Source: Borrelia hermsii DAH (GTDB lineage Bacteria; Spirochaetota; Spirochaetia; Borreliales; Borreliaceae). From it: DNA of 64,000 nucleotides. Below are positions 15,947 through 21,308 of this stretch, piece after piece; position 1 is the first letter of the stretch, and each line of letters starts with the position of its first letter. Below the pieces are notes generated by a model that was given only the letters and a program-made list of their open reading frames with translations, made no database searches and was not told the origin of the DNA. The DNA lies in contig NZ_CP073136.1 of assembly GCF_023035675.1 (NCBI RefSeq), positions 248,001 to 312,000 of the forward strand. The letters are read 5' to 3'. The position numbers and the translations under genes were made by a program.

Positions 15947-15970
15947 AAAATCTAAAAACCTTTAGATTTT
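15947..15970. terminator. Bidirectional terminator between the RND gene and lon
   Basis: AAAATCTAAA (15947-15956) and TTTAGATTTT (15961-15970) form a perfect 10-bp stem around an AACC loop. The A- and T-rich arms supply a U-tract in either direction. Its right arm reaches into the lon stop codon (15969-15971). Confidence 0.7.
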
Positions 15971-18416
15971 AAAATAATAATTTAATAACTTCTCTCATAT
16001 TATCTACAAGATGAAAATTTATGCCACTCTTGATGTTAATAGGAATGTCATCAAGATCCACTTTATTTGATTTAGGAATAATAATATGCCCAACCCCACT
16101 TCGTTTAGCAGCAATTATTTTTGCTCTCAATCCCCCAATAGCCATTACATTGCCTGTTAATGATAACTCTCCAGTCATAGCCAAATGAGGTCTTACCGTT
16201 TTATTAAGAGCTAGAGATATAAAAGCACTAGCAATAGTAATCCCAGCTGAAGGTCCATCTTTTGGTGTAGCTCCTTCTGGAATATGCAAATGAATCATAT
16301 ATTTTTCAAAAAAAGACTTGTTTACCTTAAGCTCATTACTAATACTGTTCACATAAGTAAACGCGATATTTGCAGATTCCTTCATAACATCTCCAAGTCT
16401 ACCTGTCAACTTAATACCAGGGGACTTAGACTCAGTTTTTACAGTTTCAATTACCAAAGTCGACCCACCATAATTAGTCCACGCAAGACCCATTACCATA
16501 CCTGGTGACATGACTTTATGCAAAAATTCTTCTTTTCTAAATACAGGAATACCAATATATTCTTCCAAATTTTCCTTAGAAATTTGATATGCCTTAACAG
16601 ACTTATCTTCAATAAGTTTTCTTGCAATTTTGCGAACAATTTGCTTTAAATACTTCTCAAAATTCCTAAGTCCATTATCTCTGGCATATTCCCTAGCGAT
16701 TTGAACAAGAGCTGAGCCTTGAAATTTTAAAGAATCCTTATTAACACCATTTTCCTTTAAGACCTTTGGTATTAAATATTTTCTTGCTATCTCTATTTTC
16801 TCATCATCAACATATCCTGAAAGCTGAATTACTTCCATTCTATTTAATAAAGGTGTAGGTATTGTCTCAAGAGAATTAGCTGTCAAAATAAAAAACACAT
16901 TAGAAATATCAAAAGGCAAATCAAGATAATGATCTCTAAAATTAATATTCTGCTCGGGATCTAAAACCTCAAGGAGAGCTGAGAATGGATCTCCATAATT
17001 AGATGCTGAAACCTTATCAATTTCGTCTATTAAAAAAACGGGAGAGTTTGTCTTTGTAATTCTTAGTCCTTGAATAATTTTTCCAGGCAATGCTCCAACA
17101 TAAGTTCTTCTATGTCCCTTAATTTCTGATTCATCCCTCATGCCACCCACAGAAAACCTAAAAAATTTAGTTTTAAGAACCTCAGCAACAGCTGTTCCTA
17201 TTGAAGTTTTACCAACCCCAGGAGGTCCAACTAAAAGCATAATAGCTCCTTTTTGAGATTTTCTTAATTTAAGAACAGAAATATATTCAATAATTCTATC
17301 TTTAACTTCTCTCATGCCATAATGCGTTTTATCTAAAATCTTTTCTGCCCTTTGCAAATTAAACCCATCAAAATTAACTTTTGATTCTCCCCAAGGAAGG
17401 TTTGTAATAAGTTCAAGGTAATTTCTAACCACAATATATTCAGATGAATGTTTTTCAAGAAATGAAAATTTTTCAAGTTCCCTCTCCACTGCTTCTAAAG
17501 CCTCTCCCTTTAATGCTAAAGCATTAATTTTGCCTTTAAGTTTTAAAAATTCACTACTCTTTTCATCACCAACACCAAGTTCAGCCTTAATAGCTTTAAG
17601 TTGTTCCTTTAAAAAGAATTCTTTTTGTTGTTTTTCTAACTTTTCCTGAATACCTTTAGCAATTTTATTTTGAATCTCAATTAAATTTAATTCTTCATAA
17701 ATCAACTCCAAGACCTTTTTAAGCCTATCCTTAACGCTTAAAGTCTCAAGCACTTCCTGATGAGCATCTTTTGAAGATGCGATCATTCCTGCAACAACAT
17801 CACACAATCTACCCTTATCTTCAATGTTCACCATGTTTAACTGAAATTCGGGCATCTTTCTATGTGAGAATATTTCTTTGGTTCTAAGCAAAATGCTGCT
17901 ATAAATTGCCTTTGACTGAACATCATCCTTTTTAATCGGAATCTGCTTTAAATAATCAACTTCAATTATCGGAAAATCTTCATTAAGAACAACCTTAACA
18001 AACCTAACTCTATCAATAGTTGAAACAAAAATATTATATCCACCATCAGGAAGATTAATTTTTTTCACTATTTTAGCAGTAATACCAACGGAATAAATAT
18101 CCTTCTTATGATTGATAATCAATTTATCATTCTTACTGCCTGCCTTTTCTAAAAATTTATCACGCAATACAAATAAGGAGATAATACCATTGCCTTTAAT
18201 CACATAATCAACAGCCTTCATATCAATATCAGAGACTATAACAATTGGAATAAACATACCTGGAAATACAGGATGCGATGGCACTGCAATTAAAGGCACT
18301 CTCACGGGTTTGTCAAAATGCGGTAAAATGCCTCCAGATTTTTTCGAACGCTTCTTTCCCTTAGAAACAGTATCTTTTACTTCCTCCATAGAATATTCAA
18401 TCTCCTTACGCTTCAT
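15969..18416 (-). CDS. lon: ATP-dependent protease Lon
   Basis: A cytoplasmic hexameric protease degrading misfolded and regulatory proteins. 815 residues with the three Lon parts: the N-terminal substrate domain (about 40-240, beginning VRVPLIAVPSHPVFPGM), the AAA+ domain with Walker A GPPGVGKTS and Walker B VFLIDEIDK, and the C-terminal protease domain with catalytic Ser in KDGPSAGITIA and Lys in GGLRAKIIAAKR. B. burgdorferi has two Lon proteases; by position this is Lon-1 (BB_0253). The start MKRKEIEYSMEEV has a long charged N-terminal extension. The 68-base gap to the divergent RecO-like gene contains TATAAT-type boxes on both strands. Confidence 0.97.
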   Translation of the reverse strand: MKRKEIEYSMEEVKDTVSKGKKRSKKSGGILPHFDKPVRVPLIAVPSHPVFPGMFIPIVIVSDIDMKAVDYVIKGNGIISLFVLRDKFLEKAGSKNDKLIINHKKDIYSVGITAKIVKKINLPDGGYNIFVSTIDRVRFVKVVLNEDFPIIEVDYLKQIPIKKDDVQSKAIYSSILLRTKEIFSHRKMPEFQLNMVNIEDKGRLCDVVAGMIASSKDAHQEVLETLSVKDRLKKVLELIYEELNLIEIQNKIAKGIQEKLEKQQKEFFLKEQLKAIKAELGVGDEKSSEFLKLKGKINALALKGEALEAVERELEKFSFLEKHSSEYIVVRNYLELITNLPWGESKVNFDGFNLQRAEKILDKTHYGMREVKDRIIEYISVLKLRKSQKGAIMLLVGPPGVGKTSIGTAVAEVLKTKFFRFSVGGMRDESEIKGHRRTYVGALPGKIIQGLRITKTNSPVFLIDEIDKVSASNYGDPFSALLEVLDPEQNINFRDHYLDLPFDISNVFFILTANSLETIPTPLLNRMEVIQLSGYVDDEKIEIARKYLIPKVLKENGVNKDSLKFQGSALVQIAREYARDNGLRNFEKYLKQIVRKIARKLIEDKSVKAYQISKENLEEYIGIPVFRKEEFLHKVMSPGMVMGLAWTNYGGSTLVIETVKTESKSPGIKLTGRLGDVMKESANIAFTYVNSISNELKVNKSFFEKYMIHLHIPEGATPKDGPSAGITIASAFISLALNKTVRPHLAMTGELSLTGNVMAIGGLRAKIIAAKRSGVGHIIIPKSNKVDLDDIPINIKSGINFHLVDNMREVIKLLF

Positions 18417-18484
18417 TATAACAAAAGAAAATTTTTATGAGAATTCATTTAATAATGAATTTTTTTATTATACAATAATGTATA

Positions 18485-19171
18485 ATGCGGTTTAATAAAG
18501 TCAATGCAATCATAACAAATCTATATCACAAAAAAAATTATTCCCTATTAAACCTATTTCATCCAAAAGGAATCATTCACACAATAATTTATAATTCTAC
18601 TATAAAAAAATTTAAATCCAACATCAATAACTTAGTAAGAGCCAACTTCGAAATAGTAAAAGAAAATAATTTATGCAAAATCATAGAAGTCAATGATGAA
18701 AAATTTATTATTCAAGATTTAATCCACGAAAAATTAACAATCATTCATCTTTGGGTCAAGCTTATTAATTTAAGCTTTGATGATGGGGAATGCTTTAAGC
18801 TATTTACCGAAGCTACAGAGGCACTAAACATATCAAGCTTAGAAAAAGCACATTTAATTGACTTGCAATACAAGATAAGATTTCTAATAATAAAAGGATT
18901 TTTATACTTATCAAAGTTATGTTTTAAATGTAATAAACAAATAGATAAGTATTATTACTATGATATCCATATTAACGGATTTAATTGTATAAACTGCACC
19001 AATAATAAAAATAACTACATTAACACAGGAAGTTTTAAATACTTAGAATATACAACTCAAAAGAACATAAATGCAACATTAAATATAAATTTAACTAGTA
19101 AGTCAAAAGAACTTATTAAAGTTATGATCAAAAATAAGATCAATACAGAATTTGAACAAACATTACTCTAA
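18485..19171 (+). CDS. Divergent RecO-like DNA repair protein (zinc-finger)
   Basis: 228 residues. The first ~75 residues follow the RecO OB-fold pattern (AIITNLYHKKNYSLLNLF then GIIHTIIYN). A helical region follows (about 78-145), then a four-Cys site: Cys146, Cys149, Cys168 and Cys171 (LCFKC and FNCINC). This order and total length match bacterial RecO, which anneals DNA and helps load RecA with RecR. Borrelia is usually described as lacking RecF, RecO and RecR, so this would be an overlooked member. Identity is inferred from layout and motif, not from a search. No Shine-Dalgarno sequence precedes the ATG. It is followed after 22 bases by recJ, which acts in the same pathway in other bacteria. 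It could instead be an unrelated zinc-binding protein. Confidence 0.65.
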   Translation: MRFNKVNAIITNLYHKKNYSLLNLFHPKGIIHTIIYNSTIKKFKSNINNLVRANFEIVKENNLCKIIEVNDEKFIIQDLIHEKLTIIHLWVKLINLSFDDGECFKLFTEATEALNISSLEKAHLIDLQYKIRFLIIKGFLYLSKLCFKCNKQIDKYYYYDIHINGFNCINCTNNKNNYINTGSFKYLEYTTQKNINATLNINLTSKSKELIKVMIKNKINTEFEQTLL

Positions 19172-19193: not shown

Positions 19194-21308
19194 ATGAAAA
19201 TTTGGAAAAAAAAAGAAATTGATATCCCAAAAGAAAATGTAGTCAATATCGCAAAAAAATATAACATTAGCCTTCTTGAAGCAACACTACTACTTAGAAG
19301 AGAAATTAAAGAAGAAGATTTTCTATTTTTTATTGAAAGTAGTGTAAATTTAATGCACAATCCATTTTTATTAAAAAACATAGACAAATTCACTTATAGA
19401 ATGAATGAAGCTATTGCGGAGAAGGAAAATGTATTAATATTTGGAGATAAGGATGCTGACGGTATCACAGCTACAATCATAATGTATGAAACTCTTAAAG
19501 ATTTTGGAATAAATGTAACCTATAAGATACCCTCCAATGGGGAATTTTACGGTCTTACAAAAGAGATCATTGATAAGGCATTTGAAGATAAAATCTCAAT
19601 AATAATTACTGTTGATTGTGGAATTTCCAATATTGAAGAAGCAAACTATGCAAGATCAAAAAACATAGAAGTAATAATTACAGATCATCATCTTCCAAAC
19701 AAAGAAATTGACATAGAAAATATCATTATTGATCCTCATTTAAAAGGAGATCCCTCTCCATTTAAAGAAATAGCTGGATGTTACGTAAGTTTTAAAGCAT
19801 GTCTTGCATTATACCTATCCACTACCAATCTTTATAATAAAAACATGGTATTTTTATTTCTAGAAAGATTAAATAATAACATTACACTTCATGCAATAGA
19901 AATAAACAACTACATGTTTAAAAAGTACATCGCCCTCGAAAGCAATAATGACTTGCAAATCAATATTAATAAGCTAGAAGAATTCTCAAAAAGTAAATAC
20001 GTAATTGTATTTAATAAAAATGAACAAAATCAACTCCTAAATGAGTTCTTTAATTATAAAATAGATATCGAAACAATTGATATTAGTGAAAATTTTGTAA
20101 AAAAATATCCTAAATTTGCCAAAAAAACACTAAAAGAACTAATGCAAATTACCAAATATTGTAAATATAGAAAAACTGATACTAAAGAAAAACTATATTA
20201 CGTATTTTACAACATAATATTTGAAGTAAATAAAGATTTACTAAAAAACTGTCTTAAAAGACTTAAATTTGTCGCAATAGGAACCATTGCTGATAATATG
20301 CCAATTATTAATGAAAATCGAATAGTTGTAAAAGAAGGACTTAAAGAAATCGCACTAAGAGAAAACATATCCATTAATTACCTATTAAAAGAAGTTAATA
20401 TACTAACAAAACCAATCATCACTTCAACAGATATTGCATTTAAAGTCGCTCCAATATTAAATTCAACAGGCAGACTTGAGAAAGCAGATATTACAATTCA
20501 ATTTTTATTAGCCGAAGATACTAATCAGATAGAAAATAAGTTTAAAGAAATCAAAAACATAAATACTTTAAGAAAACGCAAGGAAGAAGCATCTTGGATT
20601 GCACATGATGAGAATACCATTTTCAAAAATGATAAATTCATAGTATGTTACGACAAACAAACTCCAAAAGGAATTAGTTCTCGAATGGCAACAAGACTTT
20701 CCGCTTATTATCAAAAAGTTGCCGTTTTCCTAACAAAACAAGAAAATATCATTAAAGGCTCCATAAGATCAAACAATAAAGTAAATTCAAAAGAATTAAT
20801 TTCAATGATACCAAGTCATTTAATAATAAATTCTGGGGGACACAAAGCTGCTGCTGGATTTACACTCTATGAGGCTGTATTAAATGAATTCATAAAAGAA
20901 CTTGAAAACGCTCTTGACAAAATAGAATACAAAGAAATACATGAAGATTCAATACTAATCGATGCAATTATACCTAAAGACTTCAATAAGAGAGAACTTT
21001 TAAAAATAATAGACTTATTTGAACCTTACGGACATGGTTTTAGAGAATTTATTCTAATGATGGAAGATATATACATTCAAGATCTAAGAACAATTGACAA
21101 AAATGGAACTTCAAAACATATAAGCATGAAAATCAAAAATAATAAAGATTATTATAGGGCTATTTACTTTAATGGCACTCAAAAAATCCAAGAACTTGGT
21201 ATTAAAGATGGCCAAAATATAGACATAATATTCACAGTTGGTGAAGACCTTTACAATCAAAACGACAAAATTTTAAAAATTATTGATATCAAAAAGAGAA
21301 AAAATTAG
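19194..21308 (+). CDS. recJ: Single-strand DNA exonuclease RecJ
   Basis: A 5'-3' single-strand exonuclease for recombination and mismatch or base-excision repair. 704 residues. The DHH-family motifs are present: GDKDADGITATIIMYETL (motif I), TVDCGISN (motif II), ITDHHLPN (motif III) and DPHL shortly after. The DHHA1 domain contains GGHKAAAGFTL, and the C-terminal OB-fold region follows (about 570-700). An insert of about 120 residues rich in Asn, Lys and Ile separates the DHH core from the later AFKVAPILNSTGRLEKAD block, making it longer than E. coli RecJ (577). Last base of its stop codon is the first base of the next gene's GTG. Confidence 0.95.
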   Translation: MKIWKKKEIDIPKENVVNIAKKYNISLLEATLLLRREIKEEDFLFFIESSVNLMHNPFLLKNIDKFTYRMNEAIAEKENVLIFGDKDADGITATIIMYETLKDFGINVTYKIPSNGEFYGLTKEIIDKAFEDKISIIITVDCGISNIEEANYARSKNIEVIITDHHLPNKEIDIENIIIDPHLKGDPSPFKEIAGCYVSFKACLALYLSTTNLYNKNMVFLFLERLNNNITLHAIEINNYMFKKYIALESNNDLQININKLEEFSKSKYVIVFNKNEQNQLLNEFFNYKIDIETIDISENFVKKYPKFAKKTLKELMQITKYCKYRKTDTKEKLYYVFYNIIFEVNKDLLKNCLKRLKFVAIGTIADNMPIINENRIVVKEGLKEIALRENISINYLLKEVNILTKPIITSTDIAFKVAPILNSTGRLEKADITIQFLLAEDTNQIENKFKEIKNINTLRKRKEEASWIAHDENTIFKNDKFIVCYDKQTPKGISSRMATRLSAYYQKVAVFLTKQENIIKGSIRSNNKVNSKELISMIPSHLIINSGGHKAAAGFTLYEAVLNEFIKELENALDKIEYKEIHEDSILIDAIIPKDFNKRELLKIIDLFEPYGHGFREFILMMEDIYIQDLRTIDKNGTSKHISMKIKNNKDYYRAIYFNGTQKIQELGIKDGQNIDIIFTVGEDLYNQNDKILKIIDIKKRKN

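Follow-up and report, generated by a model that had tools for sequence, protein, structure and literature searches.

For the locus described here, the closest described systems are the RecO proteins of Deinococcus radiodurans (DR0819; PDB 1u5k and 1w3s; RecOR complexes 2v1c and 4jcv), Escherichia coli (PDB 3q8d, with the C terminus of the single-stranded DNA-binding protein SSB), and other spirochetes. RecO has been reported as missing from all Borrelia. RecF and RecR are placed by the accessible text of PMC7327063 in relapsing-fever species, tachyglossi, turcica, and A-FGy1 and are given there as absent from Lyme species, and the available part of PMC2779866 describes B. burgdorferi as lacking recO, recR, and recQ. 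No report of a Borrelia RecO was found in the titles and abstract openings of the literature searched, most subscription journals lying outside that search. Our subject is an open reading frame (ORF) of 228 codons at 18485..19171 (plus strand) of a 64,000-nucleotide window of the 1.5-Mb Borrelia hermsii DAH genome (contig NZ_CP073136.1, here C1; C1:248001-312000). We consider it very probable that this ORF is the spirochetal recO in its ancestral place between lon and recJ (lon<-recO->recJ), now so diverged that standard models miss it, that it completes with RecR and RecF the RecFOR mediator set, and that the Lyme ancestor lost all three genes. The case is built on homology, predicted fold, gene order, co-occurrence, purifying selection, and absence from the 18 Lyme-group genomes searched.

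Identity of the window protein

A hidden Markov model (HMM) of spirochete RecO built without Borrelia rows scored the window protein at 80.7 bits and all 14 Borrelia orthologs at 73 to 90 bits, with homology over their full length. Alignment of the Borrelia family to spirochete RecO with hhalign gave a probability of 98.9 at 25% identity, and pairwise identity between the Borrelia protein and 16 outgroup spirochete rows was 12 to 25%. The HMM and the hhalign alignment used 48 of 52 spirochete rows, since two outgroup loci (L095 and L132) had yielded four split-frame fragments that were removed; a set of 20 loci was chosen by hand so as to cover divergent RecOs. Thirteen other homologs are labeled as coming from relapsing-fever Borrelia or related species (among them venezuelensis, miyamotoi, duttonii, turcica, and tachyglossi), and a few orthologs are already auto-named RecO or "RecO C-terminal domain-containing" in some databases.

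An AlphaFold2 model of the 228-residue protein (predicted local distance difference test score [pLDDT], 81.3; predicted template modeling score, 0.82) returned RecO as the only strong matches in a structure search of PDB. The model predicts an N-terminal beta-barrel (OB-fold) segment at residues 6 to 68 (18500..18688, plus strand), with strands at residues 6-16, 19-26, 29-35, 51-60, and 63-68, together with a RecO-type helical domain, and OB proteins in PDB align with residues 1 to about 100. Structural identity to D. radiodurans RecO is about 12%; the latter has 244 residues versus 228 in Borrelia, and the likeness is not recognized from the sequence of the window protein alone.

A Cys4 zinc site is common, if not universal, in RecO. 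The Borrelia protein carries Cys146, Cys149, Cys168, and Cys171 (18920..18997, plus strand) in register with that site: in a 73-row RecO alignment the first three are invariant and Cys171 is conserved in at least 90% of rows. All four are kept in the 14 aligned Borrelia orthologs, unlike in 3 of the 16 outgroup spirochete rows (L115, L120, and L124), which lack the full set. By analogy with characterized RecOs, this four-cysteine site would bind zinc.

The neighborhood is likewise one that spirochete recO genes conserve. Upstream and divergent lies a gene that we take from its sequence to be lon (15969..18416, minus strand), which serves as a syntenic marker; downstream, recJ (19194..21308, plus strand) starts 22 nucleotides (nt) beyond recO on the same strand and encodes the Pfam domains DHH, DHHA1, and RecJ_OB. 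Among 50 outgroup spirochete recO loci, a divergent lon and a co-oriented downstream recJ occur together in 19, recJ only in 15, lon only in 11, and neither in 5, so that lon and/or recJ stands beside recO in the same orientation in 45 of them; lon relatives are divergent to recO in 30 of the 50. These counts are bounded by flanks of 1.5 to 2 kb or by contig ends, and at some outgroup loci the neighbor lies several hundred bases from recO. Because the same order recurs in outgroup spirochetes, lon<-recO->recJ looks ancestral, which provides independent evidence of recO orthology.

Several results weigh against this identification. Alone, the window protein retrieves no RecO family by sequence from Pfam, NCBIfam, or PDB, its top Pfam match being CBM39 (E = 0.016, below the cut-off), and database searches from Borrelia seeds alone returned Borrelia only. 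RecO_C is matched by just 7 of 14 orthologs at E <= 1 (best, 1.8e-7); of three orthologs rescanned at E <= 0.01, one scored above the cut-off, one scored below it, and one had no match. TIGR00613 fails in all eight same-genus genomes listed. As for the structure, the OB segment is only moderately confident (ten-residue mean pLDDT, 56 to 80), an earlier model from a 14-row alignment failed (pLDDT, 43), and the good model was built on an alignment that included 59 outside RecO rows, taken from 64 new proteins, so that this model cannot count as evidence separate from homology. No biochemistry on Borrelia RecO was found in the literature searched. A PF02565 search of the window's own genome likewise returned no match.

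That no standard sequence model recognizes the protein alone would also fit a zinc-binding OB-fold protein outside the RecO family that converged on RecO-like features. We regard such convergence as scarcely credible in view of the full-length profile match, the RecO-only strong matches in PDB, the four cysteines in register, and the conserved lon and recJ neighbors. Profile homology, predicted fold, zinc-site cysteines, and gene order together strongly support a strongly diverged yet genuine RecO, which is an added member of a known family. A sequence-only reading of the window had proposed this identity, and its particulars hold: the start, stop, and length of the ORF, recJ immediately downstream, and the cysteines at exactly these four positions. 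The OB-fold N terminus and helical middle that it had expected are present in the AlphaFold2 model, and RecO gave the only strong matches in a structure search of the kind that it had suggested.

Conservation within the genus

Every one of the 18 genomes of the window's genus (its own included) has an uninterrupted recO ortholog ahead of recJ, each with the 228-codon frame. The ratio of nonsynonymous to synonymous substitution rates (dN/dS) has a median of 0.14 and a range of 0.07 to 0.22 over 123 of 153 pairs, the 30 pairs with dS outside 0 to 2 having been removed. Conservation in every genome and the low median dN/dS argue against a chance ORF, and recO is under purifying selection. The great divergence of the protein could nevertheless be read as decay, leaving a RecO with little function, and B. 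recurrentis does carry a second recO copy without its 5' part beside an uninterrupted one. The frame held in 18 of 18 genomes, the constrained dN/dS of all 123 pairs, and the retention of the four cysteines by all 14 aligned orthologs make such decay highly improbable.

The B. recurrentis A1 copies (L156 and L164; NC_011244.1:275928-290816) belong to a duplication whose left end falls inside recO and whose two stretches are 99.7% alike for 5.6 kb or more, so that each contains an almost complete recJ. The truncated recO has about 170 open codons, and the seven TAA triplets counted for it probably lie in an unrelated stretch ahead of them. This duplication could be an assembly artifact. In the window itself, a TATAATG motif resembling a -10 promoter box (18481-18487) overlaps the recO start codon, and the true start or the transcript start may need checking.

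RecR and RecF in Borrelia and their absence from the Lyme-group genomes searched

The sequence-only reading had envisaged a RecO without RecF or RecR and had advised a look for RecR elsewhere in the genome. Such a look overturns the proposal: recR is found at C1:489620-490186 (TIGR00615, 210.9 bits versus a cut-off of 162.55), with helix-hairpin-helix, zinc finger, and Toprim domains, and recF at C1:463769-464755 (TIGR00611, 292.3 bits versus a cut-off of 172), with an SMC_N domain. Their flanking genes, named from their sequences, give the orders dnaX-ybaB-recR-ndk and dnaA-dnaN-recF. The latter is a common bacterial gene order; dnaX-ybaB-recR is another, according to the accessible portion of PMC9610160.

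With recR and recF counted above the curated cut-offs, recO, recR, and recF each occur in 18 of 18 genomes of the window's genus and in none of 18 Borreliella (Lyme-group) genomes, eight of which are yangtzensis, americana, finlandensis, japonica, lusitaniae, bissettiae, turdi, and tanukii; recJ is present in all 36 genomes of the family. The lack of RecFOR-type functions commonly described for B. burgdorferi therefore stands for the Lyme-group sample and does not carry over to the window, which comes from a relapsing-fever-group Borrelia. Weak RecR matches in 12 of the 18 Lyme-group genomes (E = 0.06 to 0.17) were rejected as short stretches within ORFs of 863 to 870 codons, and weak RecF matches in all 18 (best E = 1.6e-6) as short N-terminal stretches of other ORFs far below the cut-off.

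The joint distribution bears on what RecO may do. A RecO by descent whose main work is to anneal single strands, with little involvement of RecF and RecR, would agree with the annealing of SSB-coated strands by E. coli and mycobacterial RecO, as cited in the accessible text of PMC7861564, and strong divergence could reflect partly lost partner interfaces. All three genes are kept in each of 18 genomes and are jointly missing from another 18, a pattern that points instead to a shared role, and we consider a mainly solitary RecO unlikely.

RecN matches at E <= 1e-20 occur in 17 of 18 window-genus genomes and in none of the 18 Borreliella genomes, just 4 of them above the cut-off, 1 stop-interrupted, and 2 partial. 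The gene is near full length in 14 of 18; among G002, G003, G004, and G005, one copy looks broken (three stops), two are partial, and one genome has no match at the threshold.

A likely recO relic in the Lyme group

The lon-recJ gap, placed by tblastn, measures 776 to 778 bp in all 18 window-genus loci and 201 to 255 bp in all 18 Borreliella loci. With nhmmer, the Lyme gap aligns from the lon end through the lon-recO spacer (18417..18484, no strand assigned) into the recO start, at 40 to 61 bits; these scores include the spacer and the end of lon, and their composition-bias terms are about as large as the scores themselves. When the two consensuses are compared along a fixed diagonal that follows the start codon, they match at 50 of 81 nt, versus at most 39 at any other offset, an agreement reached by none of 100,000 base shuffles and none of 100,000 codon shuffles; a protein-level score was reached by 4 of 100,000 shuffles. 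Single Lyme loci agree at 46 to 53 of the 81 nt, these 18 loci being related rather than independent and the start of one (L072) having been set by hand.

Local nhmmer searches of single loci were weak. A match was found in 17 of 18 (best, 2.5 bits), and 2 of 3,600 pooled dinucleotide shuffles scored higher (3.0 and 2.7). In 12 loci, at most 1 of 200 shuffles equaled the real sequence; the corresponding figures were 2, 4, 7, 28, and 33 for L135, L080, L076, L069, and L140, and L073 had no match. When 108 translated frames from the Lyme gaps were searched with a protein profile, the best E was 0.0012. From the sequence match on the fixed diagonal, the Lyme gap likely keeps a relic of about the first 28 recO codons, which we call likely rather than proven because the local search is weak or fails in some loci. 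By tblastn, recF was not found in six Borreliella chromosomes, where the dnaN-DUF721 gap is 83 to 96 bp, nor recR in four of those six (ndk covered), where the ybaB-ndk gap is 137 to 170 bp versus 791 bp in the window's genome; no clear recR or recF relic was seen in these shortened gaps by eye, without statistics.

Most simply read, these results mean that the Lyme ancestor lost recO, recR, and recF; both the direction of the change and the time at which it happened are drawn from distribution and gene order. Sixteen relapsing-fever-specific genes have their best homologs outside spirochetes, according to the available part of Lescot et al. (2008, PMC2525819), as might be expected had the relapsing-fever lineage gained the three genes horizontally. 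The ancestral-looking orders lon-recO-recJ, dnaX-ybaB-recR, and dnaA-dnaN-recF and the likely recO relic between Lyme lon and recJ make a gain of this kind very unlikely.

Discussion

The spirochetal recO identified here shares the order lon<-recO->recJ with other spirochetes, and its activities can be sketched from RecOs already characterized, from which we infer that it binds zinc, RecR, and SSB, anneals strands, and loads RecA, as well as any part that it plays in antigenic variation. Its OB fold, together with the helical domain, would bind single-stranded DNA (ssDNA) and attach to the C-terminal tail of SSB, a contact that is known in E. coli and only predicted for Borrelia. That tail reads EDIPF in all 30 best-scoring SSBs inspected (18 Lyme group and 12 window genus). 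RecO would pair with RecR and open SSB-coated DNA at gaps, where RecF at the gap edges and resection by RecJ may assist the exchange of SSB for RecA and hence RecA loading; by itself, RecO might also anneal SSB-coated strands. Extra SSB-like genes, up to 14 besides the best, lie on other contigs in 8 of 18 window-genus genomes (G000, G002, G003, G004, G005, G007, G009, and G017), and each of the 18 Borreliella genomes has one SSB at the same threshold; assembly completeness may affect these counts.

The Borrelia telomere resolvase ResT belongs to an enzyme family unrelated to RecO. It resembles RecO in annealing SSB-coated ssDNA, according to the accessible text of PMC7861564. In the Lyme group, ResT might take the place of RecO. 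In B. burgdorferi, vlsE switching is independent of RecA, as given in the available part of PMC2779866, and RecA is unable to displace its own SSB, for which the authors posit a noncanonical mediator in the portion of PMC5663514 at hand. We tentatively propose, as a possibility that we still hold to be doubtful, that RecFOR is complete and functional in relapsing-fever Borrelia, which keep the RecFOR/RecA route, and that the Lyme loss left RecA largely idle and moved antigen-gene conversion to a RecA-independent route through RuvAB and perhaps ResT annealing. If true, one loss would explain why B. burgdorferi recA mutants show so few phenotypes.

RecO completes a pathway that has been described as broken, leaving the relapsing-fever group with a full mediator set and the Lyme genomes searched with none. 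The two groups of Borrelia thus offer a natural comparison for the role of RecFOR, and the question of the RecA mediator becomes testable.
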